Below are positions 12,401 to 41,600 of a stretch of DNA of 64,000 bases, piece after piece. The notes beneath the pieces were generated by a model. That model was not told where the DNA came from. It ran no database searches and saw only the letters and a program-made list of their open reading frames with translations. This DNA is from Leuctra nigra (lineage: Eukaryota; Arthropoda; Insecta; Plecoptera; Leuctridae). Each line of letters opens with the position of its first letter. The stretch's first letter is position 1. The stretch covers positions 29,979,997 through 30,043,996 of the forward strand of contig OW203765.1 of NCBI GenBank assembly GCA_934045905.1. Reading direction: 5' to 3'. Both the position numbers and the translations under genes were made by a program.

Positions 12401-15400
12401 TACTGAAGACTCGTACAAAACCTTATTTTATTAACAATTACATTGGTAAAAGATACTGATAAATATCGATTAAAAACTCTTCAAGGTCAAACTCACTATA
12501 CTCAGCCGTCTTAACTAAAAATGAGATTACTCATGCCACTACTAATCTTTTTTCAGTTACGAAAGGTACGAGAAATATTGGATGGATTGAAGCTTTGGAA
12601 AGTGTGAGGCAGAGCTTTGCTACGCCTGATAGATTCAAGGCCAGTGTTGGAGACAACGCAGCTGCGCCTGGTAGATCCAAGGCCAGGGTTGAAGACGATG
12701 CAGCTACGCCTGATAGATTCAAGGCCAGTGTTGGAGACAACGCAGCTGCGCCTGGTAGATCCAAGGCCAGGGTTGAAGACGATGCAGCTGCGCCTGGTAG
12801 ATTCAAGGCCAGGGTTGAAGACGATGCAGCTGCGCCTGATAGATTCAAGGCCAGTGTTGGAGACAACGCAGATGCGCCTGGTAGATCCAAGGCCAGGGTT
12901 GAAGACAACGCAGCTGCGCCTGGTAGATCCAAGGCCAGGGTTGAAGACGATGCAGCTGCGCCTGGTAGATTCAAGGCCAGGGTTGAAGACGATGCAGATG
13001 CGCCTGATAGATTCAAGGCCAGTGTTGGAGACAACGCAGCTGCGCCTGGTAGATCCAAGGCCAGGGTTGAAGACAATGCAGCTGCGCCTGGTAGATTCAA
13101 GGCCAGGGTTGAAGACAATGCAGCTGCGCCTGGTAGATTCAAGGCCAGTGTTGGAGACAACGCAGCTGCGCCTGGTAGATCCAAGGCCAGGGTTGAAGAC
13201 GATGCAGCTGCGCCTGGTAGATTCAAGGCCAGGGTTGAAGACGATGCAGCTCCGCCTGGTAGATTCAAGGCCAGGGTTGAAGACAATGCAGCTGCGCCTG
13301 GTAGATTCAAGGGCAGAGTTGAAGACAATGCTGCTGCGCCTGGTAGATTCAAGGCCAGGGTTGAAGACAATGCAGCTGCGCCTGGTAGATTCAAGGCCAG
13401 GGTTGAAGACAATGCAGCTGCGCCTGCAATTAATGCTGAGATGGATCTGTGTCTCAAGAACTGTATCAGTATTCACCAGGATCTCTTGAGGTAGGATTAT
13501 TTTACTTAATTGAGCGAGCGAAGCGAGCGACTCCATTTGGCTCTTTTAGCACGGACCTCTGTTTTTTTTTTGTTTTTTTTTTGTTTTTGTTTTTGTATGC
13601 TAAAGGAAGCAATAGAAGTCGCACCGTTTCACCGATCGACCTGAAATTTTGCACACATGTAAAGACAACCTTCTCTGTTTGCAGACCCAATTTTTTTTTG
13701 AAATCCATCCATTGGTTCATTGTTAAAATAAGTATCTCCTGATAGTCTAAAAAATGAAAATGGTCTTCGAGAAATGTGATCAAACTCATATTTAGCATGG
13801 TCAGTAAGACCAACAATGTCACTTATTTTACAAATTTTCAGCCGAATCTGTCAAGAAAGTATGCACTTATTGACATTTTTAATAGCTGTCAGAAATGAAA
13901 CATTGAAAATGAATGTCTTTCCAATGCAACTGAATCTGATTTGCTTTAGGTACAAGAGTGTTTTGATGGTATGTACACTTTTTTAGTGAAAAGCAGATAT
14001 TTTTATGTTTATTGAGTTGATCAAATTTGAATAATTCAATTTGGATCATAGTTTCCAACAAATCATTTCGAGTTTTTAAGGACCTTGATTGTCTTTTCGT
14101 CAATTCGTAGTTCTGATGGCCGTGCCTCCCGTGTTTCTACTTGGCTGATTTTGCATCCAGGAGGGATTAGAAACATAAGCTCACATTTCAATAATATCAT
14201 TGAGTGGCGTTTGTTCTCTTCTAGCGTTCACACGTCATTCCAAATCTCTCCTGCATTTTGCTTCTTTTCGTTGATAATTTTGGCAATTTGGTGTACTTTG
14301 TGAAGGTATTAGTAAAATTGAATCGCTTTTAAAGCATAGATATTAGGTATCTACAGTTTTTGTCCAGGGGATTGATTATTTCAAATTATTTTCTTCTTGG
14401 AAACGTTGGATTTATTCCGTTTCTGAGCTTCTGTCTAGCCTGACATTTCCTTGAAGGTTGCTATTTTTTTTTTGAAAGTTTTGATTCATTCAGTTCAAAA
14501 CATTACGTTGTCTTATTTTAATTGTGGAACGTTGGATTCATTCCGTTTCTAAACTAGGTAGTTACTATTTTACCTGATCCGTTTTTTTGTGTGGAACTTT
14601 GATTCCTTTCGCTTATTAGTTGAAAGGTGTTTACTTTATTTTCATATTTGCGAAGTTTTGTTCAAGATTCATTTCGTAACATTACGACATTGAATACATT
14701 ACGTCTTTGAGCACACATTTCGTGCATTTCAAACATTGATCACACAAATATTATTGTACTTTAATTAGGTAGGTACTCTACTTCTTACTTTTTCATTACC
14801 TATCTTATCCCTATTTAAACATGCCGAAAAATGGAAAGACTTCTGCTAGAATGAAAGCCATAAAGGCGAAAAAGCGTCTGCGTGAAATTGAAGATCAAGA
14901 AACTGACGAAGCTAAATCTAAAAGGTTGAAACAAAATGTCGTTAATAATAAAGCATCAAGGAGCAAAGAGACCCCCGACCAGACTGCTGCAAGGAGATAC
15001 TCAAACAATCAACGGAATACCCGCTCTCGTGCAGCGGGTATTGCCGATTGACCGACCAACTAAAAACTTCGCATGGTAATTGGTAGCAACATTTAAGGTA
15101 TTTTTGCCAATTTTCAGTCTAATTTGTAGTTATTTTCAAAAGTTTTTGTAATTTTAGGGACATTTTGTGTGTTGGCTGTCAAATTCACGGCGACTTCGAA
15201 TCTTCAGTTCAAGGCAAGGTAGTTAGAGCAGAAAGTTTCAAACGAAATGAAACTAATAATGACCGTTTAACAGATTGATCTGATATTGTGTCCACAGTAA
15301 TATCATATCATATGAGTGGTCCCAGGTATATTGTTTGAAGGATATCATGTGATTTTTGAAACTTAACCAGGAACCGTTCAATCAAAGGTTTAATCGATCA

Positions 15401-18400
15401 ACTTAAAACTTAGCAAGGTTATTGGGACCAATATTTTTGGAAATTTTGGAGATATTTATTTAAGTCTGTGACGAAATTCAAGAATTATTGGCTTTTAATG
15501 ACATTTTCGATAGACATAATTTCGGTTCGAGGTGTTGCGTGTATCCGTGCTCGCTCATCAACGCGTTACTCAGAGCGTTTTCCTAGTAATATTTCAGAGG
15601 TTGGTACCCTTATGATGTTACTGCTTCACCTTACCTCCACTCCACTGTCATCTATCAGGCAATAATAGCCATGGTTTTGATGCCGACGATTGCTGCTATT
15701 GTTTCTTTCAATGTCGCTCTACTCATGTACACGAAGATGCAGTTCTGTTTCCTCCAAGACAAGCTGCGCAGAACTCAACCTCATGAATCTGATTTGCGCA
15801 GGACGTCACAAGGACCGTCGAACACTACTCACATTGGTAAGAATAAGTTCAACACTTAAGACGCAGCTCCAATTCAATGTTTCTCCAAAAGAGCTCAAAG
15901 AGCAGTACTACTTCATTTTTATCTCTCCAAAAGTGAAAAACGCAAAATCTAGAAAATTTATTTCGGGCTTCTGCTTCTAGGGTACACAACTTTTGAGGAG
16001 CAAAAAAATTTTGATGTTTAATTTAATGAAAACCTCCTTCTCAAAAGAGTCTAATGTTATTATTTATTGATCACTCAATTAAAAAATATTTACATTATAT
16101 TTGTTATCAAGGAAATGTTTAGCCAAACTTACTCAAATGAGTCGGAATTTGTAAAAATAAAGTTTGCACATTTAAAAAAAAATGATTCACACATGACACA
16201 CAAAATACCATATCAGAATTATAAATGCCATAAGAGAAAATAGCAAATCATAACAAACAGTATTAAAAGGTTTAAATCACTTCCAGTATAATGTTTATCT
16301 TTATTTTAACCTGTACCTATTGTTATTTTATTTCATACATTCATATACATATACATACATAGTACATACACATGTGTTATTAACTGCGGTATGGGGAATA
16401 TAGAGAAGCCCGGTTGAAACTTGTGCCCACTGTCCAGTGACAAAATGGCACTGCCAAAAGGTTTGATATGGGCATAGACATATTATAAGGAATGTGATTA
16501 TGTACAATAAATGGGATCAATATTAGTCATTGTCCTCTAAGGCGAGATATTCCTACATTTAAATTCTTTTTTATTCATTATGAAGGAACGAGAAACGATG
16601 GATGGATTGAAGCATTAGAACATGTGAGTCAAAGCTTTGGTGCACCTGGTAGTTCCGAGGTCATGATTGGGGAAGAGGCAGCTGCGCCTGGTAGCTCCAA
16701 GCATGTGATTGGAGAAAAGGCAACTGCGCCTGGTAGCTCCACGGTCGTGATTGGAAAAAAGGCAGCTGCGCTTGGTAGCTCCAAGGTCGTGATTGGAGAA
16801 AAGGCAACTGTGTCTGCTAGCTCCAAGGATGTGATTGGAGAAAAGGCAACTGCGCTTGGTAGCTCCAAGGTCGTGATTGGAGAAAAGGCAACTGCGTCTG
16901 CTAGCTCCAAGGATGTGATTGGAGAAAAGGCAACTGCGCTTGGTAGCTCCAAGGATGTGATTGGAGAAAAGGCAGCTGCGCCTGGTAGCTCCAAGGATGT
17001 GATTGGAGAAAAGGCAGCTGCGCTTGGTAGCTCCAAGGATGTGATTGGAGAAAAGGCAGCTGCGCCTGGTACCACCAAGGATGTGATTCTAGAAAAGACA
17101 GCTGCACATGCATTACATGCAGAGATGCTTCTAAACAACTGCGTCAGAAACCACCAGGAACTCTTGAGGTAACCTATGATTGTACCAACGTTCCTTCTAT
17201 TAGGAATTTAATATAATTATAATCGCATGCTGTCTATTTGGTGGGAATGTGTGAATAGTAAATGCGTGCAAACAATTAATAATCTACATGCCTTGTTTTT
17301 AATATTATCACATTGTTATTCTGGTTTCAGTATTTGCTCGGAAATGAATGTCATCTCATCTAAAGTGTTCCTTGGAGCGTTTTTCGCATGTTTGATCCCT
17401 GATGTCATTATTATTGTATTCTGCACTCTGGTGAGTTATGTTTGAATAAAAGTTCCCCAGAAATATATCATGTTTATGTTTGCTAATTGCATTTATGAAC
17501 GATTAGGTTTGTGATATAAGAGTACATACTCTACTGAAAAATCGGTTTGATTTGTTAATACTAGGGTCTCTTTTTGTTGAAATATAATATGTTATCTCTA
17601 TAAAAAAACCTTTCGTGTAAAAATATCAGCCAAAAGTCGCTTCAACTAAAATTTTTGTATTTTTTTGCCCTATTAATATTAAAAAATTGGTTTAGTCAAC
17701 CTTTATTTTAAAAATAAATAATTAAAGAAGTATAAGAAGTATAACCCAGACATCAAATGGTAGTAAGAATCATGTCCAATTTACAGGTTGGTGCGCTAAA
17801 CAGAATAGCATCAATTGTTGCAAGTGGAGCGATTTGCACGCAATTGAGCACCTTGATGTTTTGCTATCTTTGTGATGAAATTACTGAACAGGTATTTAAG
17901 ATCAGTCTCGAACTTCTTACCACCAGACACAATATTAACTCTGCTGCCATTTTGTTGTTTTAGAGTGGCCTGGTAGGAGAAGCGGCATACTCTTGTGATT
18001 GGCTGGAAGCTTCCGACAAATTCAAAAAGTCACTTCGAATCATTATTTCGAGGGCGAATCAGCCGTTTATATTCAAAGTGGAAGGGACTTTACCGGTGAC
18101 CTTGAAAACATTTGACAGTGTGAGTTCATCATTCAAATATAGTAGCGAAAAAAAGTAATGACAGTTTGTATCCCACACTCATTATAACTGTACCTCAGAC
18201 GTAGAAGGGAGGAAGTTCATTTTTCTCGATTTTGCGTTGCACACTTTTGGAATGGTGTATGCTAATCAAATCCCATGATAACTATTTGACTGATGCCAAC
18301 AAATACAGTTATGAAGTATTCTCCTACACAATGACTTGTGTCAAAATTACACGATTATTCTCATACAAAATGACTAAAAAAAATAGTGTCACTTTATGAT

Positions 18401-18564
18401 TGTATGAAAACACTGGTTTTTGATCATACCTCAAGCGTCATTGAAATCTTCTACCTCTGAAGTAGGTACATAGTTATTCCAATGAATTTGTATTTGTGTT
18501 TCAGTTGGCCCAGACTACGTACTCGTACTGTACCGTTCTTCTTACTCTAGCACGTCCAGGGTAA
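9452..18564 (+). CDS. odorant receptor OR-A (7tm_6), with duplicated exon 3-4 cassette
   Basis: Exons: 1, 9452-9545; 2, 10242-10662; 3a, 11898-12136; 4a, 12566-13490; 3b, 15598-15836; 4b, 16586-17168; 5, 17331-17430; 6, 17787-17891; 7, 17964-18119; 8, 18505-18564 (TAA). Splicing through 3a-4a predicts 699 aa, through 3b-4b 585 aa; all exons together would stay in frame (973 aa) but would give two TM4 segments. TM1 and TM2-TM3 are in exon 2, TM4 in exon 3, TM5 in exon 5, TM6 in exon 6 and TM7 in exon 8. Family signatures: SGLVGEAAYSCDW in exon 7 and TTYSYCTVLL in TM7. These receptors form ligand-gated cation channels with Orco in olfactory neuron dendrites. Exon 4 carries the 42-bp coding repeat. 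Odd points: the exon 1 donor is GTTGGT where the paralogues have GTAAGT; exon 4a could instead start at 12557 (better TTTTCAG acceptor, three extra codons, same frame). The gene may be a functional alternative-splice locus or a chimera of two paralogues. Confidence 0.8.
9566..10141. mobile_element. two truncated Helitron copies, tail to tail (large inverted repeat)
   Basis: 9566-~9870 (plus) and 10141-~9880 (minus) are copies of the same family paragraph (ttttggctcttttgg, cgatctgaaattttgcacac, tctcctgataggctgaaaaa). Both lack the CTAG end and meet in the middle, giving a palindrome with arms of roughly 260-290 bp inside OR-A intron 1. The right arm runs to within about 100 bp of exon 2. Confidence 0.75.
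10663..11440 (+). other. OR-A intron 2, left part, no gene
   Basis: AT-rich intron. No conserved element was recognised before the foldback at 11441. Confidence 0.5.
11441..11834. mobile_element. foldback MITE upstream of exon 3a
   Basis: Almost fully palindromic element of about 390 bp with arms of about 185 bp. Left arm key text: aagacggctgggtatagtga ... ggctttgtacgcgtattcag ... catctgttggac. The right arm is its reverse complement. CTATTA occurs on both sides (…CCCTATTAAG / CCCTATTAAAG), a possible target duplication. It ends 63 bp before exon 3a. Confidence 0.85.
12194..12512. mobile_element. foldback MITE downstream of exon 3a (same family)
   Basis: A second, more diverged copy of the element at 11441-11834: AGACGGC terminus, tttgtacgagtcttta, and the reverse complement ending CTCAGCCGTCTT. 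It lies 57 bp after the exon 3a donor. Exon 3a is therefore bracketed by two palindromic copies of one element. Confidence 0.8.
12628..13425 (+). repeat. coding minisatellite in OR-A exon 4a: 19 x 42 bp
   Basis: Nineteen in-frame 14-residue units of exactly 42 bp, with no length variants. Three types: DRFKASVGDNAAAP, GRSKARVEDDAAAP and GRFKARVEDNAAAP. DRF units are usually followed by GRS units, giving a partial 84- or 126-bp higher-order order; the last units are all GRF. Because 42 is a multiple of three, most frames on both strands stay open, which produces spurious antisense frames. Unique exon sequence flanks the array: GTRNIGWIEALESV before it and NCISIHQDLLR after it, both conserved with the other exon 4 copies. 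It lies in the cytoplasmic TM4-TM5 loop. Confidence 0.95.
13513..15586 (+). mobile_element. Helitron, ~2.1 kb, ending 11 bp before exon 3b
   Basis: It starts at about TGAGCGAGCGAAGCGAGCGA (22 bp after the exon 4a donor) and carries the family paragraph (cgacctgaaattttgcacac). It includes a small STPR-repeat frame at 14821-15051 and ends with hairpin AACGC...GCGTT + TTTTCCTAG|T. The interior (15045-15180) also matches the minus-strand copy at 21702-22712. No Rep or helicase frame remains, so it cannot move on its own. Confidence 0.75.
14821..15051 (+). CDS. small basic protein with two STPR-like 23-residue repeats, inside the Helitron
   Basis: 76 codons, MPKNGKTSARMKAIKAKKRL at the start. From residue ~21 there are two consecutive 23-residue units that align without gaps (REIEDQETDEAKSKRL..., KASRSKETPDQTAARR...) with E7, T8 and R15 shared. 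This 23-residue period is that of the STPR motif, known from the DNA-binding FMBP-1 protein and found at the N-terminus of some arthropod Helitron proteins (established knowledge, recalled). Here it is short and ends in TGA with no helicase after it, so it is probably a truncated relic. It could be expressed as a small DNA-binding protein, but nothing shows that. Confidence 0.45.
   Translation: MPKNGKTSARMKAIKAKKRLREIEDQETDEAKSKRLKQNVVNNKASRSKETPDQTAARRYSNNQRNTRSRAAGIAD
15598..17168 (+). other. second exon 3 + exon 4 cassette (3b/4b) of OR-A
   Basis: Exon 3b (15598-15836, 239 bp, the same length as 3a and the OR-B/OR-C exons) encodes GWYPYDVTASPYLHSTVIYQ onward, with TM4 intact and donor GTAAGA. 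Exon 4b (16586-17168) has acceptor ATGAAG and donor GTAACC. Exon 2 and exon 4 both end in phase 2, and exon 3 always starts in that phase. So 2-3a, 2-3b, 4a-3b, 4a-5 and 4b-5 are all legal joins. The 3b/4b pair resembles OR-B and OR-C more than 3a/4a does. For a seven-TM product only one cassette can be used. The intron 15837-16585 is homologous to OR-B/OR-C intron 3. Confidence 0.8.
16648..17109 (+). repeat. coding minisatellite in OR-A exon 4b: 11 x 42 bp
   Basis: Eleven in-frame 14-residue units of the type GSSKDVIGEKAAAP, with variants GSSKVVIGEKATAL and ASSKDVIGEKATAL alternating in the middle. The exon then runs ALHAEMLLNNCVRNHQELLR into the splice donor. The unit is plainly related to the exon 4a unit (same 42-bp length, shared gcagctgcgcctggtag) but the two arrays share no identical unit: each is homogeneous internally. 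Charge within a unit balances (K, D, E, K). Confidence 0.95.
18189..18470. mobile_element. MITE in OR-A intron 7
   Basis: Terminal inverted repeats of the type TGTACCTCAGAGGTAGAAG. The same element lies at the same place in OR-B (27871-28149) and OR-C (41539-41810), so insertion came before the gene duplications. Further copies of the family are at 60258-60438 and 60518-60786. Confidence 0.75.
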
Positions 18565-18638
18565 TATCACTGCTTCTTACTCTGGACGATTGGAACGATT
18601 GGAAAATGGTTGCTGTTTTAATCTATTGAATTTTCAAC

Positions 18639-18644
18639 AATAAA
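18639..18644 (+). terminator. poly-A signal AATAAA of OR-A
   Basis: AATAAA lies 75 bp after the OR-A stop. The equivalent signal of the duplicated unit is at 29721-29726 behind OR-B, about 1.5 kb from its stop because of insertions. Confidence 0.6.
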
Positions 18645-19275
18645 ATATATAAAACAAAATTCCTTGTCCTTTTTGGATTATGTTATGTTTGCTCTAGAAC
18701 CATCCTTGTTTTGCACTGGGCTAGTACTTTTTCCCGCACTAATGCAGAGCATGACGACATAGGGTATTCTTTGGACTCATTCAGAGCAAGCCATTTGTTT
18801 GTTGGCCATTTTGTTGGCACGTTGACAGGTCAGATTTCTTACTTTATTGAGGTAAATAGATGTATTTTTGTAATGTGAGTGATTCCTCTCCTTGGAGCCT
18901 ATACAATGTCCCAGGTACCTATTTACTTTAAAATATGGTAAAAAAAGCAGAGAATCACGTACCTATTCTGCGTGCCATCAAAATGGTAGCAGTCAACAAT
19001 GAGGTGACAGCACGTGCAAATTATGAATATATTAACAAACAATTCAATACACATACCTATACATAGATAATATAAAGAAAACCAGGGCTACCAGGAATAT
19101 CGTAGCAGGAATATATATATATATATATATATATATGTTTAATTTCGTATTTTCACGAACATATGAGTTCGTATGTGTCCCTGAAGATGGTGGATGTAAT
19201 TCTACCGAAACGTTGGATAAATAAAGATTGTCCAAGAGAGAAAAGAGCACGAACTGATTCCCGAAAGAATAATAT

Positions 19276-19316
<41 letters not shown>

Positions 19317-20244
19317 CGAGTGATTTACAGCCGTGGCCGTGTCTCGCATCCTAGACGCCAGGAATCCTTGTCCCTCCATTCGTCCTCTTCCAGTTGATGA
19401 CTTTCCATAGCCTCCTTAACCTCGGAGTGCCATTCCTTGGCCGGACGCCCTCTAAACCGCCGTCCAGGTGGCACCCACTCCCACATCCTCTGTGGCCACC
19501 TGTTCGCGTCCACCCTTCTCATATGCCCGTACCACTTTAACCTTCATTCTTCAATCTCTTGTACCACCGTGTCTTTCTTCTCCATCCTTTCTCTAATTTC
19601 CTCATTACGTATGTGCTGTAGCCGTGATACTCCACAGCTCCTCCGCAGAAAATCCATCTCCGTTGCAAGAAGTCTTTCTTTATTTCTCTTTGTCAACTCC
19701 CATGCTTCGGATCCATAAGTGAGAAGACTCCTCACTACTGCGTTATATATATTTTTTTTTGTTTTTTTATGTAGCTGCTCGGACCACAGCAAAGAATTTA
19801 ACTTCTGAGTTGCCTGCTTTGCTTGCGCTATCCGATTGTCAATTTCTCTCCTGCTGCTTCCATCCTCCCCTATAATGACCCCCAAGTACTTATACTCCCT
19901 GCAAGACTTCACCACTTTACCGTTAACATCAAGATCACATCCCTTCCCTCCGACTACCAAATACTTCGTAGCAGGAATACCACATGTTAATCCGAGCCAT
20001 GTGTTAGTATCTTCACACCAACACACGCGTATCATAGCAGTGAAACAACTCAGTAAAAAGCATTTGAAATATTACGTTTGTCAATAAAAAATCACCATTT
20101 GACATATACAATACATTTTCCATACGTTTATGTATCCCACTATTAAAACTGAAGGGATAACTCATAAGTGTACATACATGTAAATGTAGATTTCTTATTC
20201 ATTAAAAACCTTAAGATTCCTCACAAGTATTTTACTTATACTTA
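18645..20244. other. OR-A/OR-B spacer, duplicated unit
   Basis: 18660-19090 and 19980-20250 match 29735-30010 and 31270-31680 between OR-B and OR-C (for example ccattttgttggcacgttga, aaccagggctaccaggaat). The difference is the LINE insertion here and other insertions there. No gene. Confidence 0.7.
19098..19979 (-). mobile_element. 5'-truncated LINE 3' end with (AT)n tail
   Basis: Minus-strand frames 20035-19544 and 19522-19325 encode the C-terminal part of a non-LTR reverse transcriptase: KYLVVGG, YKYLGVIIGEDGSS, IAQAKQATQKLNSLLWS, LTYGSEAWELTKRNKERLLA, EMDFLRRSCGVSRLQHIR, then after a frame break RRVDANRWPQRMWEW and PGRRFRGRPAKEW. The catalytic YxDD part is missing. AT microsatellites at 19108-19136 and 19280-19314 lie at its 3' side. 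The matching spacer at about 31404-31410 lacks the insert (ccaggaat + accacatg joined). TCGTAGCAGGAAT is repeated at both ends, a possible target duplication. Confidence 0.8.
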
Positions 20245-21243: not shown

Positions 21244-24200
21244 ATGAAGCTGCTACGTGCTGGGATGTCAGATGAAGACAAACGCGATGGGCAGAATCAT
21301 CTCTTTAAGCACAACATCAGGATCTTGCATTATCTCGGTAAGTATAGGTAACATAAAAAATTACCATTTGTGTAATCAAATCTAAATTCCAAAAAAATAT
21401 CACAAAGTATCCTCAACTGAAAGAAAAATCTAAAAATTCATCGCGGAGATAAAGCAATTTTAAAAAATAAGCAAAGTCAAATTAAAAAAATTATTTTTAA
21501 AATCAAATAAAACTATGCTGGTTGTGTAATTCAACAATATGGCTAAAACAAGCATATTGGTTAGAATAAGCCACACTTTACGTTTAATACACTGAAAACA
21601 GGTTAAAAATCATGAATCATGAATCATGTTTTAAAATTTGATTTACGAAATTAATAAAATAAAATATAGTTACATGTTTTGGAGGTGGCAGGCATCTATA
21701 ACTAGGAAAACGCTCAGTGTAACGCGTTGATGAGCGAGCACAGAACATGCAACATCCCCAATCACGATACCACGACACGGCACAAGACGATTTTCTCAGC
21801 AACTTTCCAATCTCCATATAAATACTCTGGATAATATCAGATCCATTGTGTCGTGACTTTCCTATATGCTTTTTCCAGCTTTTGACAACCCATACTAAAC
21901 ACGTAAAATGACAATAAATACTTGAATTGGGCTTAACATGTGTAAAATTTTAGATTATGTTGGTCTTGATCACCAAGCAATATTTGAACCTAATCGGAAC
22001 ATTTTGATTGTCGACCAATCAGAAGATATTATTTAAACTTAAACCAATTGGAGGATTTGGCCTTCGTACTGCTAAAGATAAATAGTACTGCATCCGATTT
22101 GATATGCGCTAGTTTTACTGTAAATTGTGGACCACTTGGCTGCTCTACAGGCCTTGGAGCAGTAGCTTAAAGAAGGCAGGGATGAAAATGTAGTAAACAT
22201 TTTACAAATATTTCAAGATTGTGGAATAAAATGTCCTAAAATGACAAAAACTTTTGAAAATAACGACAGATTAGACTGAAAATTGGCAAAAATACCTTAA
22301 ATGTTGGTACCAATGACCATGCGAAGTTTTAAGTTGGTCGGTCAATCGGTTCTAGTTTAAATTTCAAAAATCACATGAAAATGGTTTTAAATTTTAACCA
22401 ATGGGAGGATTTGGCTGAAACTTTGTATGATTGGGTATAATGTTGGTTGCAATGTTTTTGCTAAATTTCAAATTGATCTGAGCAACTAATCGAGAGATTT
22501 TATTTTGTAAACTTGAACCAATCACAGGAGCCCGTTCAAAAACGATCCCAGGGACCGCATAGATTACATTAACATGTGTGCAAAGTTTCAGATCGATTGA
22601 ATGTGCGGTTTAACCTAGGCTGTGCAGACAAAAAAACAAAAAAAAACAAAATAACACACAAAGAAAGTGCCATTTAAGAGTACCGTGGTGACGCTCGCTA
22701 CGCTCGCTCAAAAACCGTGTTTTACTGCGCTTATACTATGCACTGTACCAATACCTACAGATTGGTTATTTGATTACGTATACTCTTGCATTAAGCACTA
22801 TGTGCGAAGTTTTTTAAATTTCAAAATCATTTTCTGTTGTAACTACTTTATTATTTCGATTCTTGATTCTTTATTTGGGGATACACGAGTTAAAAAAATA
22901 TTAGGTAGGCCGAACATTTAAAACAAAGGAATATATTTTATATATTTGAATCAATATTTTTTAGGCTAGGCACGTAAATTCGGGGTATAACCACTAGACG
23001 AAATATATCACTTTGAAAGTCCTAGTTTCGTGACGTGACTCCTATACATTCCACTGTTAATATTTCATCATAAACTTGCCGCGATCATTGATATGTTTAT
23101 TTCATACGTGGAACTAAACATATACATGTATAGAGCAATACCTATAGGGCCACGAATGACGTTGGTGCGAACAGAAAGTGATCTAACACTGTTTTTTTTT
23201 ATATTGGATCATATACGTACATTTTTTTATTATTATTAACTAGGAAAACGCTCAGTGTAACGCGTTGTTGAGTGAACACCGACGCGCGCAACATCAACTA
23301 AGCGCGGTACACTCAATCAACTCTACAAACTCCTACATTACCTATTTCTGATTTTCATGTATGATGTACGCACTCTGTAATGATTGAATACCATATAATA
23401 CACACATGTGTAATTGATGTGTCCATGTGTAAATAGTCCTTGTGAATAACAGAATTTGGCGGACTTTTAGTAGATTAGGTAGAAACCTAGATATATTCCA
23501 GATTTTACAGATATGTTCCAGATTTTTTTCCCCATACGATATGAAATAATACTCAAGTTGCGCTAGTAGTGAGTAGGTTAGGTTCTCTTTTCTTTGCTTT
23601 AGACTCCTGACCTCTGAACTAATTGTAATATTACTCTTCTAGGTTTGTGGTCAACGTCTTCAGGAAAGGGTTGCTTCTGGTACTTGATTCCTAGAATCCT
23701 AATAGGCCACTGCATAGTCGAGGGGTCAGTGGTAAGATTTCTTCAACTGTGGTTTGAATGGAATCAGCTAAGTGTCAGCGACTTATGCGTGCAAAGTATG
23801 ACATTAACAATATTACTAATCGGAGTAGTATTATTCGTGAACCATCTGTACTACATGGATCGAGCTGAGTCGCTTGTGGCAAGATTGGAAAGAAATCATA
23901 ATCCCAAACATCTTCGGGACAAAGCTCAGCTTGCTCTATTTGTAAAGACTAAGAAGATTACTGATGCCTGGGCGTTCTTTGTGCCATTTATACAGCTGGT
24001 AATAACACTTGCGATCTTCTCGAATATCCCTCATCTTATTGCAGAGAAGAAAACTGAAAATGGGTAACTATAATTTTTTACCATCAAGGCATGTCCATTC
24101 TTCCGTTTTACCGAAAGAATCAAGGATACTGGTAGAGGAAGTTTGGGTAATATTTAAATCACGATATCATATTTCAGAGGTTGGTACCCTTATGATGTGA

Positions 24201-27200
24201 CTGTTTCACCTTACCTCCACATCACTGTCATCTACTATGCAATAATAGCCATGGTTTTGATGCCGTCGATGGCTGCCATTGTTTCTTTCAACGTCGCTCT
24301 ACTAATGTACACCAAGTTGCAGTTCTGCTTCCTCCAACACAAGCTGCGCAACACTCGACCTCATGTAGCTTCTTTGCGCAGGACGTCACAGGGACCGTCG
24401 AACACGACTCATGTTGGTAAGAATAAGTTCAAAGGTGGCTCAACCAATCGGGGCATGGTCTCAGATCTTCATAATTTTTTGTTTACTTATTGATAATCAT
24501 GCCATACACCATGTCTCAAAAATTGAACACTTCTCGTGCCTAGTTTCTGAGATAAATTGAGTTTCCTTCCCCATGATATCTAGTATCTTCCGATCAAAGT
24601 GAAATCGTGTCAAATTTAGGCTAATAATGAAGATCTAATTTTTATGTAGCCCCATCTTTGAACAATACACATATTTTCTGGTAGATAGTTGGACATTCTA
24701 CTTGGAAAAAATGTAAAACAATATCAATGTGTGCTATTTTAAAAGTTATAGACCAAATACGAAATAGTAGGGGAGCAAATGTAATTCCGCTCGATTGGAG
24801 TGCCGAAATTGATTTTTTCATAATTATCGATTGTTTACATCATTCTTAATATTACCTGACGTGCCTTCAATTTTTTTGGTGGCCATCTTGGAAAATATGG
24901 CGGAAAACGAACGAAAAACGTAAATTTTACAAATTATTTAATTGATGGTAGAGGAAATATTGAAAAATTATGTAATAATTCACTAAAACTAACTCAAATA
25001 TAGTGACTTGAAAAAAAAAATACGCCGTAAACAAAAAATTTAAAAAAATTTAAAAAAAAATTAAGTTTTTTTCTAAAAAAACATAATTTTTTTTAAAACG
25101 CATATTGTTCAAAATGAAATTGTCTAAAAATTTTAATTCTACATATTTTAGTCTAAGTCTACGCGTTTCATAAGAAATTGAGAGCAAAAAAACACAGAAA
25201 CGTGATTGGTCAATTCCAACAATGAAAAAATAAAATTCGTTCACGGCGTATTTTTTTTCAAGTCCCCATATTTGAGTTAGTTTTAGTGAATTATTTCATA
25301 ATTTTTCAACCTTCACTCTACCAACAATTAAATAATTTGTAAAATGAACGTTTTCCGCCATATTTTCCAAGATGGCCACCCAAAAAATTGAAGGCACGTC
25401 AGGTAATATTAAGAATTATGTAAACAATTGATAATTATGAAAAAATCAATTTCGGCACTCCAATCGAGCGGAAAGCATTTTTTCTACACTTGAACCTGCA
25501 CTAAAATGATTTTCCAATACCTCCTGTGTTAAAGTTTTGATCCTTCTCGGAAAGCAATAAATTGAAATCTCATTATCAGACATAGGAGTTGCAAGTTAAA
25601 TGTTATTTTATGATTATTGGTTACTTAAATATAGTTGAAATGTTGGAAAAAGTAATTCATGATCGTAATAGGATGGCTTCTAGGGCACACAACTTTTTAG
25701 GAGCAAAAAAATCTGGAAGTTTAATTGTAAGAGTCAGATTTTATTATTTATTGTCATTGATCACACAATTTAATAACATTCACATTAAATTTGTAATCCA
25801 CGTACTCGTTTAGCCTAACTTACTAAAATGAGTCAGAATTTGTAAATATGAAGTTTGTAACTTTTTCAAACAAATACAGTTTGATTCACACATGACACAC
25901 AAAAGACCATATCAGAATTATAAATGCCATTAGAGAAAATAACAAATCAGAACAAACATTATTAAAAAGTTATATACCCCTATTAAAAACACAAAATTAT
26001 TGTTTCTTCACTTCCGGTATATAATGTTTTCTTTATTTTAACCTGTATTGTTATTTTATTTCATACATTCATACATACATAATAATTGATCAATTGAATA
26101 ATTGAACAAGTAAATGCATGTGTATGTACACTCGTCAATTCATTAAACGGTATTTGAAATAAATGGATTGTCTGAAAAAAATGTGATGGCATCATCCGAT
26201 GAATTCTATGCTAACTCGTCATTTAAATCTAGTCGGTGAGCTCTGATTTCATTGATTATAACAAGGATTGATTGCCATGGAACCTGACAAGCAGCCAATA
26301 CGTTTCGTTCAAATGCCGTTTTATGATTTCTTGGGTGTATACGTTGATAGAAGAACAGGCGGTATGTACTATGCATGTATATGCATATTATACATACACC
26401 ATGCACTTACTGGCATGGGGGATAGAGAGAAGCCCGGTTACAACTTGTGCCCACTGCCCACTGCCAAAGAAATGGCACTGCCAAATGGGTCGATATTGGC
26501 TGAGTAGTAATCTTATAAGGAATGTGATTATGTACCTACATTAAATGGGATCAAATTAGTAATTAATTGTCTTCTAAGGCAAGATAATCCTACACTTAAT
26601 TTATTTTTTGTTTATTATGAAGGAACGAGAAATGATGGATGGATTGAAGCATTAGAACATGTTAGTCTGAGCTTTGGTGCACCTGGTAGTTCCAAGGTCA
26701 TGGAAAAGGCAACTGCGCCTGGTAGTTCCAAGGTCGTGATTGGGGAAGAGGCAACTGCGCATGCGCTACTTGCTGAGATGCTTTTAAACAACTGCGTCAG
26801 AATCCACCAGGAACTCTTGAGGTAACCTATGATTGTACCAACGTTCCTTCTATTAGGATTTTAATATAATTATAATCGCATGATATTGTCTATTTGGTGG
26901 GAATGTGTGAATAGTACATTTTGCGTGCAAACTGTAGAATAATTAATAATACTACACACCTTGATTTTAATATGATGAAATTGTTATTCTGGTTTCAGTA
27001 TTTGCTCGGAAATGAATGTGATCTCATCCAAAGTGTTCCTTGGAGCTTTTCTCGCATGTTTGATCCCTGATGTCATTATCATTGTATTCTGCACTCTGGT
27101 GAGCAATATTCGATCATATCTTAACAGTTCCCCAGATCGTCATGTTTATATATGTATGTTTGTATTGCGTTTATAAACGATTAGGTATGTGACAATATAA

Positions 27201-28255: not shown

Positions 28256-28263
28256 CTTTGTGG

Positions 28264-32652: not shown

Positions 32653-35600
32653 ATGAAGTTGCAACGTGCTGGGATGTCTGATGAAGACAAAAGCGATGGG
32701 CAGAATCATCTCTTTAAGCACAACATCAGGATCTTGCACTATCTCGGTAAGTATATCATAAAAAATAAGTGTAGTAAACAAATCTGAATTCCGAAAAAAA
32801 TCACAAAGTATCCTTAACAAAGAAAAATCTAAATATACTTCGCTGAGATTAATTAATATTAAAAAATAAGCGAAGTCAACTTTAAAAATTATTTTTTAAA
32901 AATCAAAAAATTCTTTGCGGATTGTGTTTTTAACAATGGCTAGTAGAAGCATATTAGTTAGAATATTGGCCACTCTACAAGAAGTTCAATCTACAGAAAA
33001 CAGATCAATAATGAATCATGTTTTAAAATTTGATTAACGAATTAAGAAATTAAAATGTATTTACATCTTTTGGAGGTGGCAGTTATGCATCTGTAAAAAT
33101 CGTGTTTTTTTGAGCTTATTCTATCACTGTAATAATACCTTTTGGTTATTTGTTATTGGTTATTGGTTATTTGTTTACGTCCTACTCTTGCATTATAATC
33201 GATCAGAATTTTGAAATCGTGAAGATTTTAAAATCATATGTATTCTGATGTAACTACTTTTCCGTCTCGATTCTTGATTCTTTATTTAGGGACGAGTTTA
33301 AAACAGATTAGGTAGGCCGAAACATAGGAATATATTATATATATTTCAGGCTATATTTTTTAAGCTCGGCAGGTAACCACGGGGTAACCGTGGTTCGGGG
33401 TAACCGGGGTAACCACGAAACAAAATATATCACTTTGAAAGTCAGCTGATTTCGTGACGTGACTCCAATGCTTTCCACTGTTAATATTTCATGACTAAAA
33501 CTTGCTGCGATCATTGCTATGTTTATGACATACGTGGAACTAAATACATCTAGTGGAGCGGTCGCTCCACCCAGCCAAGTCGTACTGTACACTCACACTC
33601 ACTCAACATACCGAAAATGCCTAATAAACTGAGTAGCAGACCAAACACTTTTACTGTAAGCAATAACATGGCATTTTCGGCCTACTGGATCTCAAAATTG
33701 GGAAATCTCACATTGTTGCGAAATATGTTAATTTCGAGCAATGGCCCACCCCACATCATATACCGAATTTGGGAACAATACGTGTTGCCGTTTGCGAGCT
33801 AGAGGGCCGTGAAAACAGTGAAATTACACCCCTTTTAAAAGCTATCATGATTCAGATATCAGGAAACGTTGCTATCACCGCCACAGCCTAAACGGCTGAA
33901 CCGATCGATATGAAAATTTTACCACATGTGCACTTTTGGCGTCTTATGATACCTTTAATCTTATAAATTTTTTGTGCCGCCATTTTTAAACCGGAAGTGA
34001 CGTCATATATCAAAAACGGCTGGACCGATTAGAACGAAATTAGCGCCATTCGATTTAGAAGGTCATCTTTAAGGAATACCAATAGTGGAAAAAGAAATGT
34101 TTTATAACCTAAACCGGAAATGACGTCATAAAAATGACAAATCTGACTAAAATCATCTCTTATATCAATAACTACATATTCAGAAGGCTTATAATGTTAC
34201 ATAACATTTATAGATACAAATTTTAGGTGGCAGTGATGTCAACCGCCATTTTGAAAACCGGAAGTGATGCCGTAACTCGAGAACGGCTGGACCGATTGGA
34301 ACGAAACTTTCGCTATACTTTGTAACATATTATTTATAGCATAAACACAGTAACAAGCACAACATTTCTTAGCAACCTAATCACAATATCTTATTTTTTA
34401 AAAGAATTATAATCTTTGGTACCACAATATGTTACAAGTTGTAATAATAAACTGAAAAAAGGAGTGATATCCCCATAAAAAATACTCCGTGTAAAAATAC
34501 CAGCCAAGTCTCTTCAATTAAAAAAAATAGAAGGAATCTAAAAATTCAGCACTGAAAAGTAGTGATATCAAAAAATTGGCCAAGTCAAAACTTTTCAAAA
34601 AATACTTGGCGCATCGTTTTTTTAGGACATGTGTAGATGAGTACATTTCATTTCCTGCCTACGTCTATACTAATTATATGAACGATGCGCCAAGTATTTT
34701 TTGAAAAGTTTTGACTTGGCCAATTTTTTGATATCACTACTTTTCAGTGCTGAATTTTTAGATTTCTTCTATTTTTTTTTAATTGAAGAGACTTGGCTGG
34801 TATTTTTACACGGAGTGTTTTTTTATGGTAGTATAATACAGGGCCATGATTGAAGTCGTTGCGAACAGAATTTGAGCAACCAACACTGCCTCTTTTAATA
34901 TTCGATCGAATACGTACATTTTATTTATAATAACCTATTAACTAGGAAAATGCTCAGTGTAACGCGTTGATGAGTGAGCACCGATACATACAATATCTCC
35001 AACCAAATATGATCCACTCAATCAAAGATGGCTCCTAAATATTTTCTGATTTTCATGGCAACTTTTCAATTTCCATGCATGCACTTTGTTATAATTGTAC
35101 CCCTCAGAACCAGAGTGGTGTAAGTCAAAAAATTGACATTTGGAGTTAGGCACGGAAATATAATCGTCATGTTCTATTCTGTCTTTGCTAGAGTGGCCTA
35201 AGTCATAACTTTCAATTTGGCCGCTAGGGAGCAGTTATCTCCAGGCATGCTGATTTTATGAGCAATTATTCCAGTACCAGAGTGGTGTAAGTATTTTTTT
35301 TTTAATTTTCAAGTACTTTTCTTGGAAATTATTAAGATTTGGGTTAGTTATTCATATCTTATTGATATATTTATTGATTAAAAGCATAAATTATGAGTCA
35401 TACAAACTTTTTTTGCTTGATAAAAAAGCACAACAGTATGACAACACAACACTAACCTAACAAAAGTTGGGTGCCCTTTTGGTGTAAGTCCTGTATTTAG
35501 CACTGTTTAGCTTTCCCTAATGTCATTTACTTCCTTGCCAGAGTGGTGTTTCCATTTTTGACCTCTGACCCTGGTCATTATTGAAAGGTTTCGATTTGAA

Positions 35601-38600
35601 GATTAATTGTTTTAGTTAAATCACTCTATTTTAAGCAATATTATACCCTTCCAAACATCTAAAAAAAAATCCCACAATTTACATTTTCCAAATAACTTTA
35701 GGTCCAATTATCTCAGTTTGAGAAAATGTGACTTACACCACTCTGGTTCTGAGCAGGCGCGGTTCTAGGAGGCGGTTCTCGTCATGTGAATTATCATTCT
35801 CACTATACTACTAAATAAGATATTGTGTAAAAATCTAAAATATTTTGCAGAAGTCGAGAATTTCTTCCGTGATAGTGAGTTTAAGCAATTGTTTACACCC
35901 TGTTTTTCTCAGAATGCAGGTGCAGAATGAGCTTCTTGCATTGACCACAGATAAGTCATGAAATGTTCCACTGCCCCAACGCCTTCTAAGTGACGACAAC
36001 TACCCCTTCCCCTCATCCATGTATTCTTAGCATGTAGCCTGCAGGACCTGCTAGCGCCGGAAGTGCATCGTCAAGCAGCTCATTCGTATCCTGTTTCTTG
36101 TCGAGAGCAGACGTTGTTGTAGACTTTTCGCTACAGTGATATCACCAATTTATTCGCTTGGTCACCTAATGTTTTAGTTTTATTTTACTGGCTTGCTTAG
36201 GCAATGTTGTATTTCGTTGATATAGTCCGCAATTTAACCGGCTGTTTTGTAAGTGAATGACTAACGCTTGGTACAATGAAACAAAGTAGTATGAAATGAA
36301 ACTTCATACTAGTTGCAACGAAAATGAAGCCATTTACCAATTCCGAAAATTGTAAAAAGTGTTTGGTTTGGCGTGTGAAATATTGTTCGATGCCTTTCAT
36401 AATAAACAAAATACACTGAATGAACCAGGCACGAAGGAAGGATCACTTAATAATTTGCTTCAGTTCGTGCATTTTAGAGCCCCAGAATCACTTTTAAATT
36501 GTTAAATTCTAAAAAAACGCCCTGCGGGGCTAAAACGGAAGGGCTTCGCGCCCCCCCCATATAAAAGTATTTCCTACGCGTCTGGAATGAACCTACCTGA
36601 TCTCGTGAGCATTATTGGCCCGCAAGTCAAAAAGGTTGACTTTGACTTGGTTGACTTGATTGGCTTAGAATGATGTTTGTATTTTTAAGTGGGACAATTT
36701 GTTAAATGATTTTGGTGTCAAATATATTCCGGAAACACTCCAAAACACTTCTACGCTCATCCAATTTCAAATAAAATCCCTGCGGGGCAAGTGAGGGGCC
36801 TTGCCCCCCACACCCCCCGCGGGTAGTGTTTTTGGATGGATCTCGTTTGCCCACCCAAATTTTCGATCCTAGAACCGCGCCTGGTTCTGAGGGGTCCAAT
36901 TGAATTACATATCTATGTGTAATAGATGATGTATTAACATGTGTAAAATCCTTGGGAATAACAGGAAACCTATGTTACATAGGTGTCTACCTAATCTACC
37001 TAATCTCCATAGTTCCTTATCTCCATATCTAAAAAGAAATTATAGTACCAAAACAATCTGGAATTCAAAATACTTTAGCTGCTATTAGTAGTGGGTTAGG
37101 TTCTTTTCTTTGCTTTAGACTCTGGACCTCTGGAAAAATTGTACCTTTTCTCTTCTAGGCATGTGGTCGACGTCTTCAGGAAAAGGTTGCTTCTGGTACC
37201 TGATTCCTAGAATCCTGATAGGCCACTGCATAGTCGAGGGGTCAGTGGTCAGATTTCTTCAACTGTGTTTTGAATGGAATCAGCTAAGTGTCAGCGACAT
37301 ATTCGAGCAAAGTCTGATAATGACAGTATTACTAATCGCATTAGTAGGAATCGTGAACCATCTGTACTACATGGATCGAGCTGAGGCCCTGGTGGCAAGT
37401 TTGGAACGAAATCATGATCCCAAACTTCTTCGGGACGAAACTCAGCTTGCTCTATTTGTAAAGACTAAGAAGATTACTGATGCCTGGGCGATCTTTGTGC
37501 CATTTATACAGCTGGCATCAACACTTGCGGTCTTATCGAATATTCCTCATCTTATTGCAGAGAAGAAAACTGAAAATGGGTAACTATAATTTTTTACCAA
37601 CGAGGATGTCCATTCTTCTCGTTTTACCGAAAGAATCAATGGTAGAGGAAGTTTATGTAATATTTCAATCATGATATCATATTTCAGAGGTTGGTACCCT
37701 TATGATTTGACTGCTACACCTTACCTCCACATCACTGTTATCTACCAGGCATTAATATCCGTGGTTTTCTTGCCGTCGATTGCTGCTATTGTTTCTTTCA
37801 ACGTCGTTCTACTCATTTACATCAAGATGCAGTTCTGCTTCCTCCAACACAAGCTGCGCAACACTCGACCTCATGTAGCTGGTTTGCGTAGGACGTCACA
37901 AGGACCGCCGAACACGACTCATGTTGGTAAGAAAAAAGCTCCAATTCAATGTGTCTCCAAAAGAGCTCAAAAGACCAGTACTACTTAATTTTTATCTTTC
38001 CAAAAGTGAAAAACGCAAAATCTAGAAAATGTATTTTGGGCTTCTGCTTCTAGGGTACACAACTTTTGAGGATTTTTTTTTGTTTTTTAGCTAGTTGTTA
38101 CGACTTTTATTGCGTCTTGCACCCCAACTGCCAAGCCTCTCTATCCAGCCATATTGGTCCTCCAGCAGCTCTCTCTTCCTCATCGCCTCAACCACCTCTT
38201 CTTGCCATGATCTCGGGACGACCACGCTTTCTTCTCCCGACTGGACTCCAGTTCCACAATCTCTGAGCCCACCTGTCGGGATCCCTCTGTCGCATGTGGC
38301 CGTACCACAATAACATCTTCTTTTCAATATCATCGAGTACAGTTTTAGTCACTTACATCTGTCTTCTGATTTCATCATTCCTTATATTATGTTGCAACCG
38401 TGACACTCGACAACTTCTTCGGAGAAAATCCATTTCAGTAGCCAACAACCGGTTTAGTGATTTCCCATGTTTCTGCTCCATACGTAAGAATGCTTTTAAC
38501 TACAACGTCATAAATATATTTTTTCGTATCACGTCTTAGATGCTCAGACCACAACAAAGAATTAAGTTGTTGCGTCGCTTGTTTTGCTTGTGTGATTCTA

Positions 38601-41600
38601 CTTGTTATTTCTTGCCTTCTATTTTCTTCTTCAGATAAAATCACTCCCAAATACTTATATTCTGTACATGCTGTTAGTAGCCTACCATCGATGTCCAAAT
38701 CTTGCCCTCTTCCTCCTGCCACCAGATATTTGTCTTGTCATAACAAGAAAATTAGTCAAATGTTATTATTTATTGATCACACATTTAAAAAATATTTACA
38801 TTAAAATTGTTATCCAAGTGAATGTTTAGCCTAACTTACTCATATGGAGTCGGAATTTGTAAATATAAAGTTTGTAACATTTTCAAACAAATACAGTTTG
38901 ATTCACACATGACACGCAAAATACCATATCAGAATTATAAATGCCATTAGAGAAAATAAAAAATCAGATCAAACAATATCAAAATTTTTCACTTCCGGGA
39001 TAATGTTTTTCTTTATTTTAACCTGTATTGTTATTTTATTTCATACATTCATATACATACAAATATTGAACAATTTACATACATAGTACATACACATGGG
39101 GGGAATATAGAGAAGCCCGGTTGCAACTTGTGCCCACTGCTCACTGGCAAATGGCACTGCCAATAATGTTTCGATATGGGCTGTAGAAATCTTTAAGGAA
39201 TATTATTATTTACAATAAATGGGATCAATATTAGCAATTGTCCTCAAAGGCGAAATAATCATACATTTATTTTTTTTCTGTTCATTACGAAGGAAAGAGA
39301 AAAGATGGATGGATTGAAGCATTAGAACATGTGAATCGGAGCTTTGGTGCACCTGGTTCCAAGGTCATGGAAAAGGCAGCTGCACCTGGTAGCTCCAAGG
39401 ATGTGATTGGAGAAAAAGCAACTACGCTTGGTAGCTCCAAGGATGTGATTGGAGAAAAGGCAGCTCTGCTTGGTAGCTCCAAAAATGTTATTGGAGAAAA
39501 GGCAACTACGCTTGGTAGCTCCAAGGATGTGATTGGAGAAAAGGCAGCTCTGCTTGGTAGCTCCAAGGATGTTATTGGAGAAAAGACAACTACGCTTGGT
39601 AGCTCCAAGGATGTTATTGGAGAAAAGGCAGCTCTGTTTGGTAGCTCCAAGGATGTGATTGGAGAAAAGGCAGCTGCGCCTGGTAGCTCCAAGGATGTGA
39701 TTGGAGAAAAGGCAACTACGCTTGGTAGCTCCAAGGATGTTATTGGAGAAAAGGCAACTACGCTTAATAGCTCCAAGGATGTGATTGGAGAAAAGGCAAC
39801 TACCCTTGGTAGCTCCAAGGATGTGATTGGAGAAAAGGCAGCTGCGCTTGGTAGCTCCAAGGATGTGATTGGAGAAACGGCAGCTGCACCTGGTAGCTCC
39901 AAGGTCGTGATTGGGGAAGAGGCTGCTGCACATGCGCTACATGCTGAGATGCTTCTAAACAACTGCGTCAGAATCCACCAGGAACTCTTGAGGTAAACTA
40001 GATTTTAATATAATTATAATCGCATGCTGTCTATTTGGTGGGAATGTGTGAATTGTAAATGCGTGCAAACTGTAGAATAAATAATTATAAAATACACCTT
40101 GATTTTAATATCATCAAATTGTTATTCTGGTTCCAGTATTTGCTCGGAAATGAATGTGATCTCATCTAAAGGGCTCCTTGGAGCATTTCTGGCATGTTTG
40201 ATCCCTGATGTCATTATCATTGTATTCTGCACTCTGGTGAGCAATATTCGATCATATCTTGAATAAAAGTTCACAAGAAATATAGTTTGTTTTATGTATG
40301 TTTGCTATATTTGGGTTTATAAGCGATTAGGTAATGTGATATAAGAGTAAACTTTACTGAAAATGGGTTTGATTTGATAATTATATAGTTTCTTTTTGTT
40401 CAAATATATGTGTAATCCCCATAAAAACAATCCGTAATCAATCTAAAATTAAATCAATTTTTTTTATCACTATTGATATTAAATAATGGGCCAAGTCAAA
40501 ATTTACCTATAACTTATAAGAAGTATAACCAAGACATCACATACACCTACCTGTAATTGTACGAATCATGTCTTATTTACAGGTTGGTGCGCTTAACAGA
40601 ATGGCATTAATTGTTGCAAGTGGAGCGATTTGCACGCAATTGGGCACCTTGATGTTCTGCTATCTTTGTGATGAAATAACCGAACAGGTATTTAAGATCA
40701 TTCTCGAACTTCTTACCATTAGAAACACAATATTTACTCAGCCATTTTGTTGTTTTAGAGTGGCCTGATTGGAGAAGCGGCATACTCTTGTGATTGGCTG
40801 GAAGCTTCCGACAAATTCAAAAAGTCACTTCGAATCATCATTTCGAGGGCGAATCAGCCGTTTCAATTCAAAGTGGAAGGGACTGTACCGGTGACCTTGA
40901 AAACATTTGACAGTGTGTGTTCCACATTCAAATATAGTAGCGAAGCAATGTAATGATGTTTGATGGCTAGAATGTTTATGACATATCCTATTTTAGTCTT
41001 TTTGTTCAGACACGTCTAAAAATGATATATAAATATGTTTTATGTGTTCCTGATTTCAAAAATAGGAGTTTCATTTTGCCTGAAAATGCTTTTTTCTCAA
41101 TTTTTTTTATGAATTCTGTCCTTTTTTGCTATTTAAGGGATTTTTGTCCTTTTTTAAACTATTGTGGAAAATAATATGAAATGTTTGTTGCAAGTTACAA
41201 CAATTTTATGAATTTTGGTCTAGACCACAATTCATAGAATTTCCATCCACCATTTGGATGGCCATTAACAATTGATACTTGATACATAGACACATTCATA
41301 CAATAATTTTTAGTTAATTTTAATATAATTACTCTAAGTACAACTCCTAAACCAATAAATTGTATAATATGTTGACGAATATTACATACGATAAAATTTC
41401 ATTGGTCCTTTTTCGGGATTTTATGGTCCTTTTTTAATAGTTTTAAGGTATATTTGCCTGCCTTTTTGGACGTGTCATTGGTCATAAACATCCTAGCCCT
41501 AGTTATGACAGTCTGTCAGATCCCACACTGCAAATAACTGTACCTCAGAGGTAGAAAGGTGGAAGTCCATTTTCTCGACTTAAAATTGCACACTTTTGGA

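Follow-up and report, generated by a model that had tools for sequence, protein, structure and literature searches.

Tandem in-frame units in the predicted TM4-TM5 loop of odorant receptor genes of Leuctra nigra

Insect odorant receptors of the family PF02949 (7tm_6) include several with solved structures, among them Aedes OR10 and OR28, MhOR5 and Orco, and by the known topology of the family their loop between transmembrane segments 4 and 5 (TM4-TM5) is cytoplasmic. To our knowledge, no tandem array is present in this loop of Orco. Repeat-rich coding sequence is discussed together with homogenisation or gene conversion for spider silk and keratin-associated protein genes; in the present case the repeats fall instead in an ion-channel receptor family, within a loop predicted to be cytoplasmic, and they involve many loci and two unrelated units. 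Calmodulin studies of Orco draw attention to this loop, SAIKYWVER in the second intracellular loop of the fly protein being named as the calmodulin site (excerpt of PMC7881240), and the loop is unresolved in a structure determined by cryo-electron microscopy, "which suggests a high flexibility" (excerpt of PMC10713630). In a window of 64,000 bp from the plecopteran Leuctra nigra (assembly GCA_934045905.1, contig OW203765.1, positions 29,979,997 to 30,043,996), three predicted odorant receptor genes, designated A, B and C, carry tandem in-frame units of 14 residues in the TM4-TM5 loop, and other receptor genes of the same genome carry units of 33 residues there, up to 29 in one gene, which sets them apart from the described members of the family.

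The preferred reading, with a probability of about 0.55, is that these arrays are coding minisatellites, in frame and placed between the regions for TM4 and TM5, and that they encode length-variable, sequence-tolerant spacers or tethers in a predicted cytoplasmic loop. A preliminary description of the window, made from its sequence, had stated that no described receptor with such an array was known; in agreement with it, no report of tandem arrays in a receptor TM4-TM5 loop was found among the papers listed in searches of one open-access library, from which most subscription journals are missing. If the receptors are made, this part of a smell sensor would vary enormously in length, from ordinary size to ~1,000 residues, and would probably serve as an adjustable spacer or tether. 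The genome would then offer a natural series of loop lengths (2, 11, 14 and 19 units of 14 residues; 1, 2, 3, 5, 6, 25 and 29 of 33) in receptors that otherwise look ordinary, so that the role of the loop is directly testable. Exons with long arrays resemble repeats, so that receptors of this lineage may be missed or truncated by standard gene models and in receptor counts.

The 42-bp arrays and the genes that carry them

Gene B, the only one of the three scanned whole, matches PF02949 with 114.8 bits (cut-off 25.8, E = 5.5e-33), and genes A and C are assigned to the family by close paralogy to it. Over its C-terminal half, gene B can be aligned with the solved receptors OR10, OR28, Orco and MhOR5, of which OR10 is the best match and closer than Orco, and its residues 142-423 align with residues 190-472 of the MhOR5 chain over nearly equal lengths, so that two units leave a loop close to ordinary size. 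The array ends 22-24 residues upstream of the end of exon 4. This end, AEMLLNNCVRIHQELLR in gene B, aligns on QEVLVRSAIKYWVERHK of ApisOrco, and the exon-4 residues just after the array align with RSAIKYWVERHK of ApisOrco, the Orco calmodulin site, per-residue confidence being middling in both cases; the array is therefore placed between TM4 and the calmodulin-site segment, in the same loop as Orco intracellular loop 2 and stopping just before the aligned part. Hydropathy, from which alone membrane segments were computed here, picks out TM2-TM5 of gene B and TM1-TM6 of gene C, with TM7 flagged in neither gene, the exon order agrees with the 7tm_6 family alignment, and the loop is taken to be cytoplasmic because of the known family topology. 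The family match and the structure alignment together support the original identification of odorant receptors with an array in the predicted TM4-TM5 loop. Protein searches for homologues of gene B (5317 candidates) and of the exon with the 11-unit array (7997 scored) gave none at E <= 0.001 in a collection that seemingly contains no insect proteins, since gene B should match any insect receptor.

Exon 4 occurs in four copies, with 19 and 11 in-frame units of 14 residues (arrays A1 and A2, both in gene A), 2 units (gene B) and 14 units (gene C). Tandem Repeats Finder reports a period of 42 bp with 0% indels at 12619-13426 (19.2 copies), 16641-17105 (11.1 copies) and 39370-39927 (13.3 copies). 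The first unit of gene B has 12 residues and that of gene C has 11, departures of 6 and 9 bp that are both in frame. Tandem in-frame units within a coding exon are what defines a coding minisatellite (variable number tandem repeat), the coding status here being predicted from sequence, and the copy number differs between paralogues of the one assembly. The preliminary description had given the same exon limits and unit counts, no full unit that breaks the frame, and flanking exons of constant length, all of which the gene models and frame reading bear out (exon 3 is 239 nucleotides in four of four copies and exon 5 is 100 nucleotides in three of three). The four exon-4 copies that it listed do exist; they belong to three genes, those at 12566 and 16586 both lying in gene A. 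Its mention of charge balance agrees with the near-zero net charge of the three long arrays (+6 per 266, +2 per 154 and -1 per 182 residues). Charge balance was rejected as proof of selection, 66% of simulated random paths of 10 changes keeping |net charge| <= 1, and the openness of the frame was rejected as proof of coding because other frames over the arrays are open too (long open frames number four over the first array and three each over the second and the fourth, both strands counted).

The predicted models comprise three intact genes of eight exons each, from ATG to stop, with GT-AG introns; exon 1 was located as a conserved block upstream of all three. Gene B encodes 461 residues and gene C 624. 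Gene A (9452-18564) has single exons 1, 2 and 5-8 and a duplicated cassette of exons 3 and 4 in which the arrays differ, and its frame is kept with cassette 3a-4a (699 residues), with 3b-4b (585 residues) or with both (973 residues), so that in-frame alternative splicing of the two cassettes could occur. Exon 3a is more diverged from the other copies (synonymous divergence, dS, 0.31-0.44) than exon 3b is from those of genes B and C (0.16-0.21), and gene A is accordingly read as the probable product of a fusion between two receptor genes.

The donor of gene A exon 1 (9546-9551) is a weak GTTGGT, compared with GTAAGT in genes B and C, and the exon-4 acceptors end in CGAAAG, ATGAAG, ATGAAG and ACGAAG, without the ordinary pyrimidine-AG end. 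Both features would suit the view that no protein contains the arrays, the genes being unexpressed or the arrays being removed by splicing inside them. This view is quite improbable in light of the intact frames, the GT-AG introns, the constrained exons, and the frame shift that follows when exon 4 is skipped, which brings a stop after 256 codons in each of the models examined for this (gene A with exon 3b, gene B and gene C), so that the array is not removable by simple skipping. Tandem arrays are also hard to assemble, and copy numbers might have been inflated or collapsed; against this, the units within an array differ, the edge units are distinct and the pattern is common to many loci, and an assembly artefact is very hard to credit.

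A second unit in the same loop

A search of the whole genome with the 42-bp exon as protein (536 Mb in 144 contigs, with all 35 candidates scored) gave 15 matches, all within the window and none outside it, and the 42-bp units had no match in the flanks, which were examined over the 110 kb preceding and the 120 kb following the window. The flanks hold four more receptor genes (G1-G4) on the minus strand, revealed by exon-7 matches; exon 7 of G2 matches 7tm_6 (E = 1.6e-11), its N-terminal part scoring 21.1 bits, below the cut-off. The TM4 exon of each also contains tandem units, of 33 or 30 residues (a 99-bp unit), numbering 3, 6, 5 and 2, with the consensus ADSLEHIMAKRRQKTENSRTPAERGVMELSQGG, and the units are followed by ~105 residues ending in ECIQHHQELI. 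A Pfam scan of the 33-residue units alone gave nothing above cut-off. Judged by sequence comparison, the 33-residue array is unrelated to the 14-residue array and shares its predicted loop position in other receptors, so that the feature extends beyond genes A-C and the TM4-TM5 loop has apparently taken up in-frame minisatellites at least twice in this genome. Loop exons amount to 1.8% of the 294 kb covered, arrays included, and contain 7 of its 20 tandem repeats (period >= 24, score >= 150); the period is a multiple of three in all seven, compared with 5 of the 13 others. The seven are related by descent, so that they count as two origins and not as seven events.

Between G4 and the other three genes dS is 0.84-1.04 in TM4, yet only 0.22-0.27 after the array, and the G4 loop is nearly identical to those of G2 and G3 (L025, L012-L014; G000:C4, ~29.94-29.97 and 30.09 Mb). 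The pattern suggests that receptors differing in body have exchanged loops, possibly by gene conversion.

Elsewhere in the genome, a search with the loop module gave at least 340 matches (150 of 991 candidates scored), those listed lying on contigs C1 and C3-C12; the 99-bp unit gave at least 353 (40 of 219 candidates scored) and the 7tm_6 family at least 136 (127 of 2092). A 100%-identical 99-bp unit is present at 40 or more loci on eight contigs, C3-C10 (hand count among the matches listed). Receptor context was read at nine loci, which contain between 1 and 29 of the 33-residue units and have a receptor-type anchor in each case: in addition to G1-G4, these are L032 (3 units), L033 (a single unit, by eye), C8 (29 units), L036 (25 units) and L037 (at least 14 units, the stretch starting inside the array). 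The HQ anchor follows the array in nine of nine, and TM4 is visible in seven and partly visible in L036, that part of L037 lying beyond the fetched stretch. In C8, L036, L037 and L032 together, unit spacings are 99 or 90 bp in 67 of 67 cases with 0 stops in 71 units, and all unit spacings measured, for either unit, are multiples of three bases. The C8 gene (G000:C8:2801900-2807600; L035 and L034) has an open frame of 1090 codons that contains TM4, 29 units and the anchor; it is preceded by an exon-2-type match (TM1-TM3, E = 7e-15) and followed by an exon-7 match (E = 2e-19) clipped by the end of the fetched stretch, with TM5 and TM6 recognised by eye in the translation, without significant match. 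By arithmetic, the predicted loop of this gene would be about 1,000 residues long.

Selection, turnover and fold of the arrays

Distinct variants within the 14-residue arrays, scored against each consensus, comprise 39 nonsynonymous and 15 synonymous changes (n = 54; expected nonsynonymous fraction 0.73), which matches the neutral expectation. The 16 units of G1-G4 have 31 nonsynonymous and 6 synonymous variants (p = 0.26) and those of C8, L036, L037 and L032 have 24 and 12, neither different from expectation. No sign of selection on residues is thus apparent inside the 14-residue arrays at the level of predicted codons. The consensus units of A1 and A2 differ by 10 bases in 8 codons, and the amino acid is changed in 8 of 8; the rapid change attributed to the arrays at the outset is supported. 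Outside them, the ratio of nonsynonymous to synonymous change (dN/dS) for exons 1, 2, 3, 5, 6 and 7 pooled (3b for gene A) is 0.36 (A-B), 0.47 (A-C) and 0.50 (B-C), and that of the 3' flank of exon 4 is 0.08-0.13. Among the predicted models, exons 5-7 are clearly constrained in most pairs, as is the anchor, constraint being weaker upstream.

The two units of gene B resemble the first and last units of gene C, whose 12 other units are absent from gene B; the difference is one of whole units, and gene B looks like gene C minus 12 interior units. In a tree of units, those of A1 all fall together (support 0.999), and those of A2 and C are intermixed. Most likely, whole units are added to the arrays or lost from them, in a sequence-tolerant spacer; slippage or unequal exchange would cause these changes, and gene conversion would homogenise the 33-residue module across loci. 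The loop would tolerate arrays because it lies outside the membrane core, and receptors would come to differ in loop length more than in exact residues. Loop length could in turn alter trafficking, assembly with Orco or adaptation, and a role of the arrays in regulation is plausible. A more ambitious version, in which throughout the odorant receptor family of this insect a repeat-built TM4-TM5 module of up to ~1,000 residues gains and loses whole units, passes by gene conversion between receptors whose odour-binding bodies differ, and sets their tethering and regulation as a "length code" beneath the membrane for a family of ligand-gated channels, is put forward only tentatively.

The loop might instead merely accept an expanding minisatellite, with the frame alone kept and length without effect. 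Ratios of nonsynonymous to synonymous variants at expectation in both unit types (39:15, 31:6 and 24:12) and the loss of whole units from gene B with its receptor frame intact are what such tolerated noise would produce. Two unrelated units in one loop, up to 29 units held in frame, and the conserved non-repeat tail of the 33-residue module (dN/dS 0.10-0.43 in G1-G4) speak against it, though gene conversion can produce the same patterns and these points stay indecisive; on balance, noise is considered a rather unlikely explanation of the arrays. Alternatively, each 33-residue (and 14-residue) unit might be a docking site for calmodulin, a kinase or some other cytoplasmic partner, copy number setting the regulation. 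The array adjoins the segment aligned with the Orco calmodulin site, KRRQK, a basic stretch of the 33-residue unit, recurs up to 29 times, and unit identity is high. The units nevertheless have no deficit of amino-acid changes and the A1 and A2 consensus sequences differ at 8 of 14 positions, which renders multivalent docking improbable.

Several observations weigh against the reading of the arrays as sequence-tolerant spacers in functional receptors. Constraint is weak in exon 3 (dN/dS 1.16 for B-C and 0.89 for A2-C), in exon 2 (0.73 for B-C) and in the 5' flank of exon 4 (0.97 for A2-C and 1.03 for B-C). Neutral-looking substitution in the arrays is also compatible with loops that lack any effect. 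The ratio of nonsynonymous to synonymous differences (pN/pS) between units is 1.35 within A1, 1.41 within A2 and 0.65 within C, and reaches 3.43 for A1 against A2, 2.25 against C and 2.91 against B; the pairs are non-independent, and the values for A1 against the others could hint at diversifying change of the encoded residues rather than tolerance. The exon-4 acceptors are unusual, as described above; the genome-wide counts are lower bounds from candidate sets scored in part; and the similarity of A2 and C to beta-rolls, described next, points to a possible folded element rather than a plain spacer.

The preliminary description had called the arrays probably disordered, which is not supported as stated: A2 and C match a beta-roll family, and AlphaFold2 is indecisive. 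The family of grass antifreeze beta-rolls, PF21300, matches A2 with 39.7 bits (E = 5.5e-10) and C with 34.7 bits (E = 1.9e-8) at a cut-off of 30, and no PF21300 match was obtained when A1, with its 19 units, was compared with Pfam. LEA-type (late embryogenesis abundant) repeats were considered for the 14-residue unit, and Pfam reported none. With left-handed beta-rolls such as the grass ice-binding protein and the heads of trimeric autotransporters, A2 and C share a period of 14-15 residues and a G-(5-6 residues)-IG-like pattern; A1 is without the pattern, and A2 and C differ from these proteins in lying within a membrane-receptor loop, known here from sequence. In phmmer searches of the sequences in the PDB, A2 matches the head of an autotransporter (E = 3.1e-10) as well as the grass ice-binding protein (E = 8.9e-5), its third-ranked match being a chain whose name denotes a viral spike construct (E = 6.2e-5), and C matches the same two proteins (E = 2.8e-3 and 3e-4). 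When units were permuted and compared with the grass protein, 2 of 2000 permutations reach the score of A2 and 29 of 2000 that of C (1883 and 1866 scored). One of 10 permuted controls, however, passed the cut-off of another Pfam family (E = 1.1e-8) and a second fell exactly at its cut-off, so that E-values are inflated for periodic sequence of this kind.

AlphaFold2 predicts a solenoid for C (mean predicted local distance difference test score, pLDDT, 84.5) and strands for A1 as well. It yields confident solenoids that are not real for random repeats, according to an excerpt of PMC11795689, and with this bias and the strands of A1 its model was rejected as proof of a solenoid. Foldseek found 0 matches at E <= 0.001, and likewise for the model of A1. 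VIA-align fits helices, which we take to be right-handed, to the model at a root-mean-square deviation of 3.2 and beta-rolls only at 7-8, and the hand of the model may be at odds with the left-handed sequence match. It is therefore doubtful that A2 and C form a solenoid of 14 residues per turn, a rigid rod with one turn for each unit: the Pfam and phmmer matches, the permutation ranks and the solenoid predicted for C favour it, and the lack of a match for A1, the controls that pass cut-offs, the rank of the spike construct, the bias of AlphaFold2, the strands of A1, the Foldseek result and the VIA-align fit do not.

Coordinates and neighbouring features

Table 1. Predicted exons of receptor genes A, B and C, in window coordinates, with predicted TM segments
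Feature	Position	Strand	Remark
Gene A exon 1 (ATG, MKLLRDGMSDED...)	9452-9545	+	conserved in three genes
Gene A exon 2 (TM1-TM3 by family alignment)	10242-10662	+	
Gene A exon 3a (TM4, first cassette)	11898-12136	+	
Gene A exon 4a, 19-unit array	12566-13490	+	array 12622-13419
Gene A exon 3b (TM4, second cassette)	15598-15836	+	
Gene A exon 4b, 11-unit array	16586-17168	+	array 16642-17103; PF21300 match
Gene A exon 5 (TM5)	17331-17430	+	
Gene A exon 6 (TM6)	17787-17891	+	
Gene A exon 7	17964-18119	+	
Gene A exon 8, stop (TM7)	18505-18564	+	
Gene B exon 1	21244-21337	+	
Gene B exon 2 (TM1-TM3)	23643-24063	+	
Gene B exon 3 (TM4)	24178-24416	+	
Gene B exon 4, 2 units of 12 and 14 residues	26623-26821	+	array 26679-26756
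Gene B exon 5 (TM5)	26999-27098	+	
Gene B exon 6 (TM6)	27465-27569	+	
Gene B exon 7	27641-27796	+	
Gene B exon 8, stop (TM7)	28184-28255	+	
Gene C exon 1	32653-32746	+	
Gene C exon 2 (TM1-TM3)	37159-37579	+	
Gene C exon 3 (TM4)	37688-37926	+	
Gene C exon 4, 14 units, first of 11 residues	39293-39992	+	array 39349-39927; PF21300 match
Gene C exon 5 (TM5)	40137-40236	+	
Gene C exon 6 (TM6)	40583-40687	+	
Gene C exon 7	40759-40914	+	
Gene C exon 8, stop (TM7)	41834-41893	+	

The intron before the two-unit exon of gene B contains a large inverted repeat (24760-25480, by eye). Two fragments on the minus strand resemble reverse transcriptase by eye (19547-20071 and 38438-38737, neither with a Pfam match at 0.01), the second of which sits in gene C, within the intron that separates exon 3 from exon 4. 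Near the receptor cluster is a satellite of 19.5 kb with a period of 302 and ~65 copies (G000:C4:29886340-29905848), and the edge of the window (1-404) is occupied by a tandem repeat of 33 bp in 12 copies. Also on the minus strand, 54376-55005 and 5623-5994 encode proteins rich in YGAP-like repeats or proline, with a borderline match to DUF4794, that appear cuticle-like by eye.

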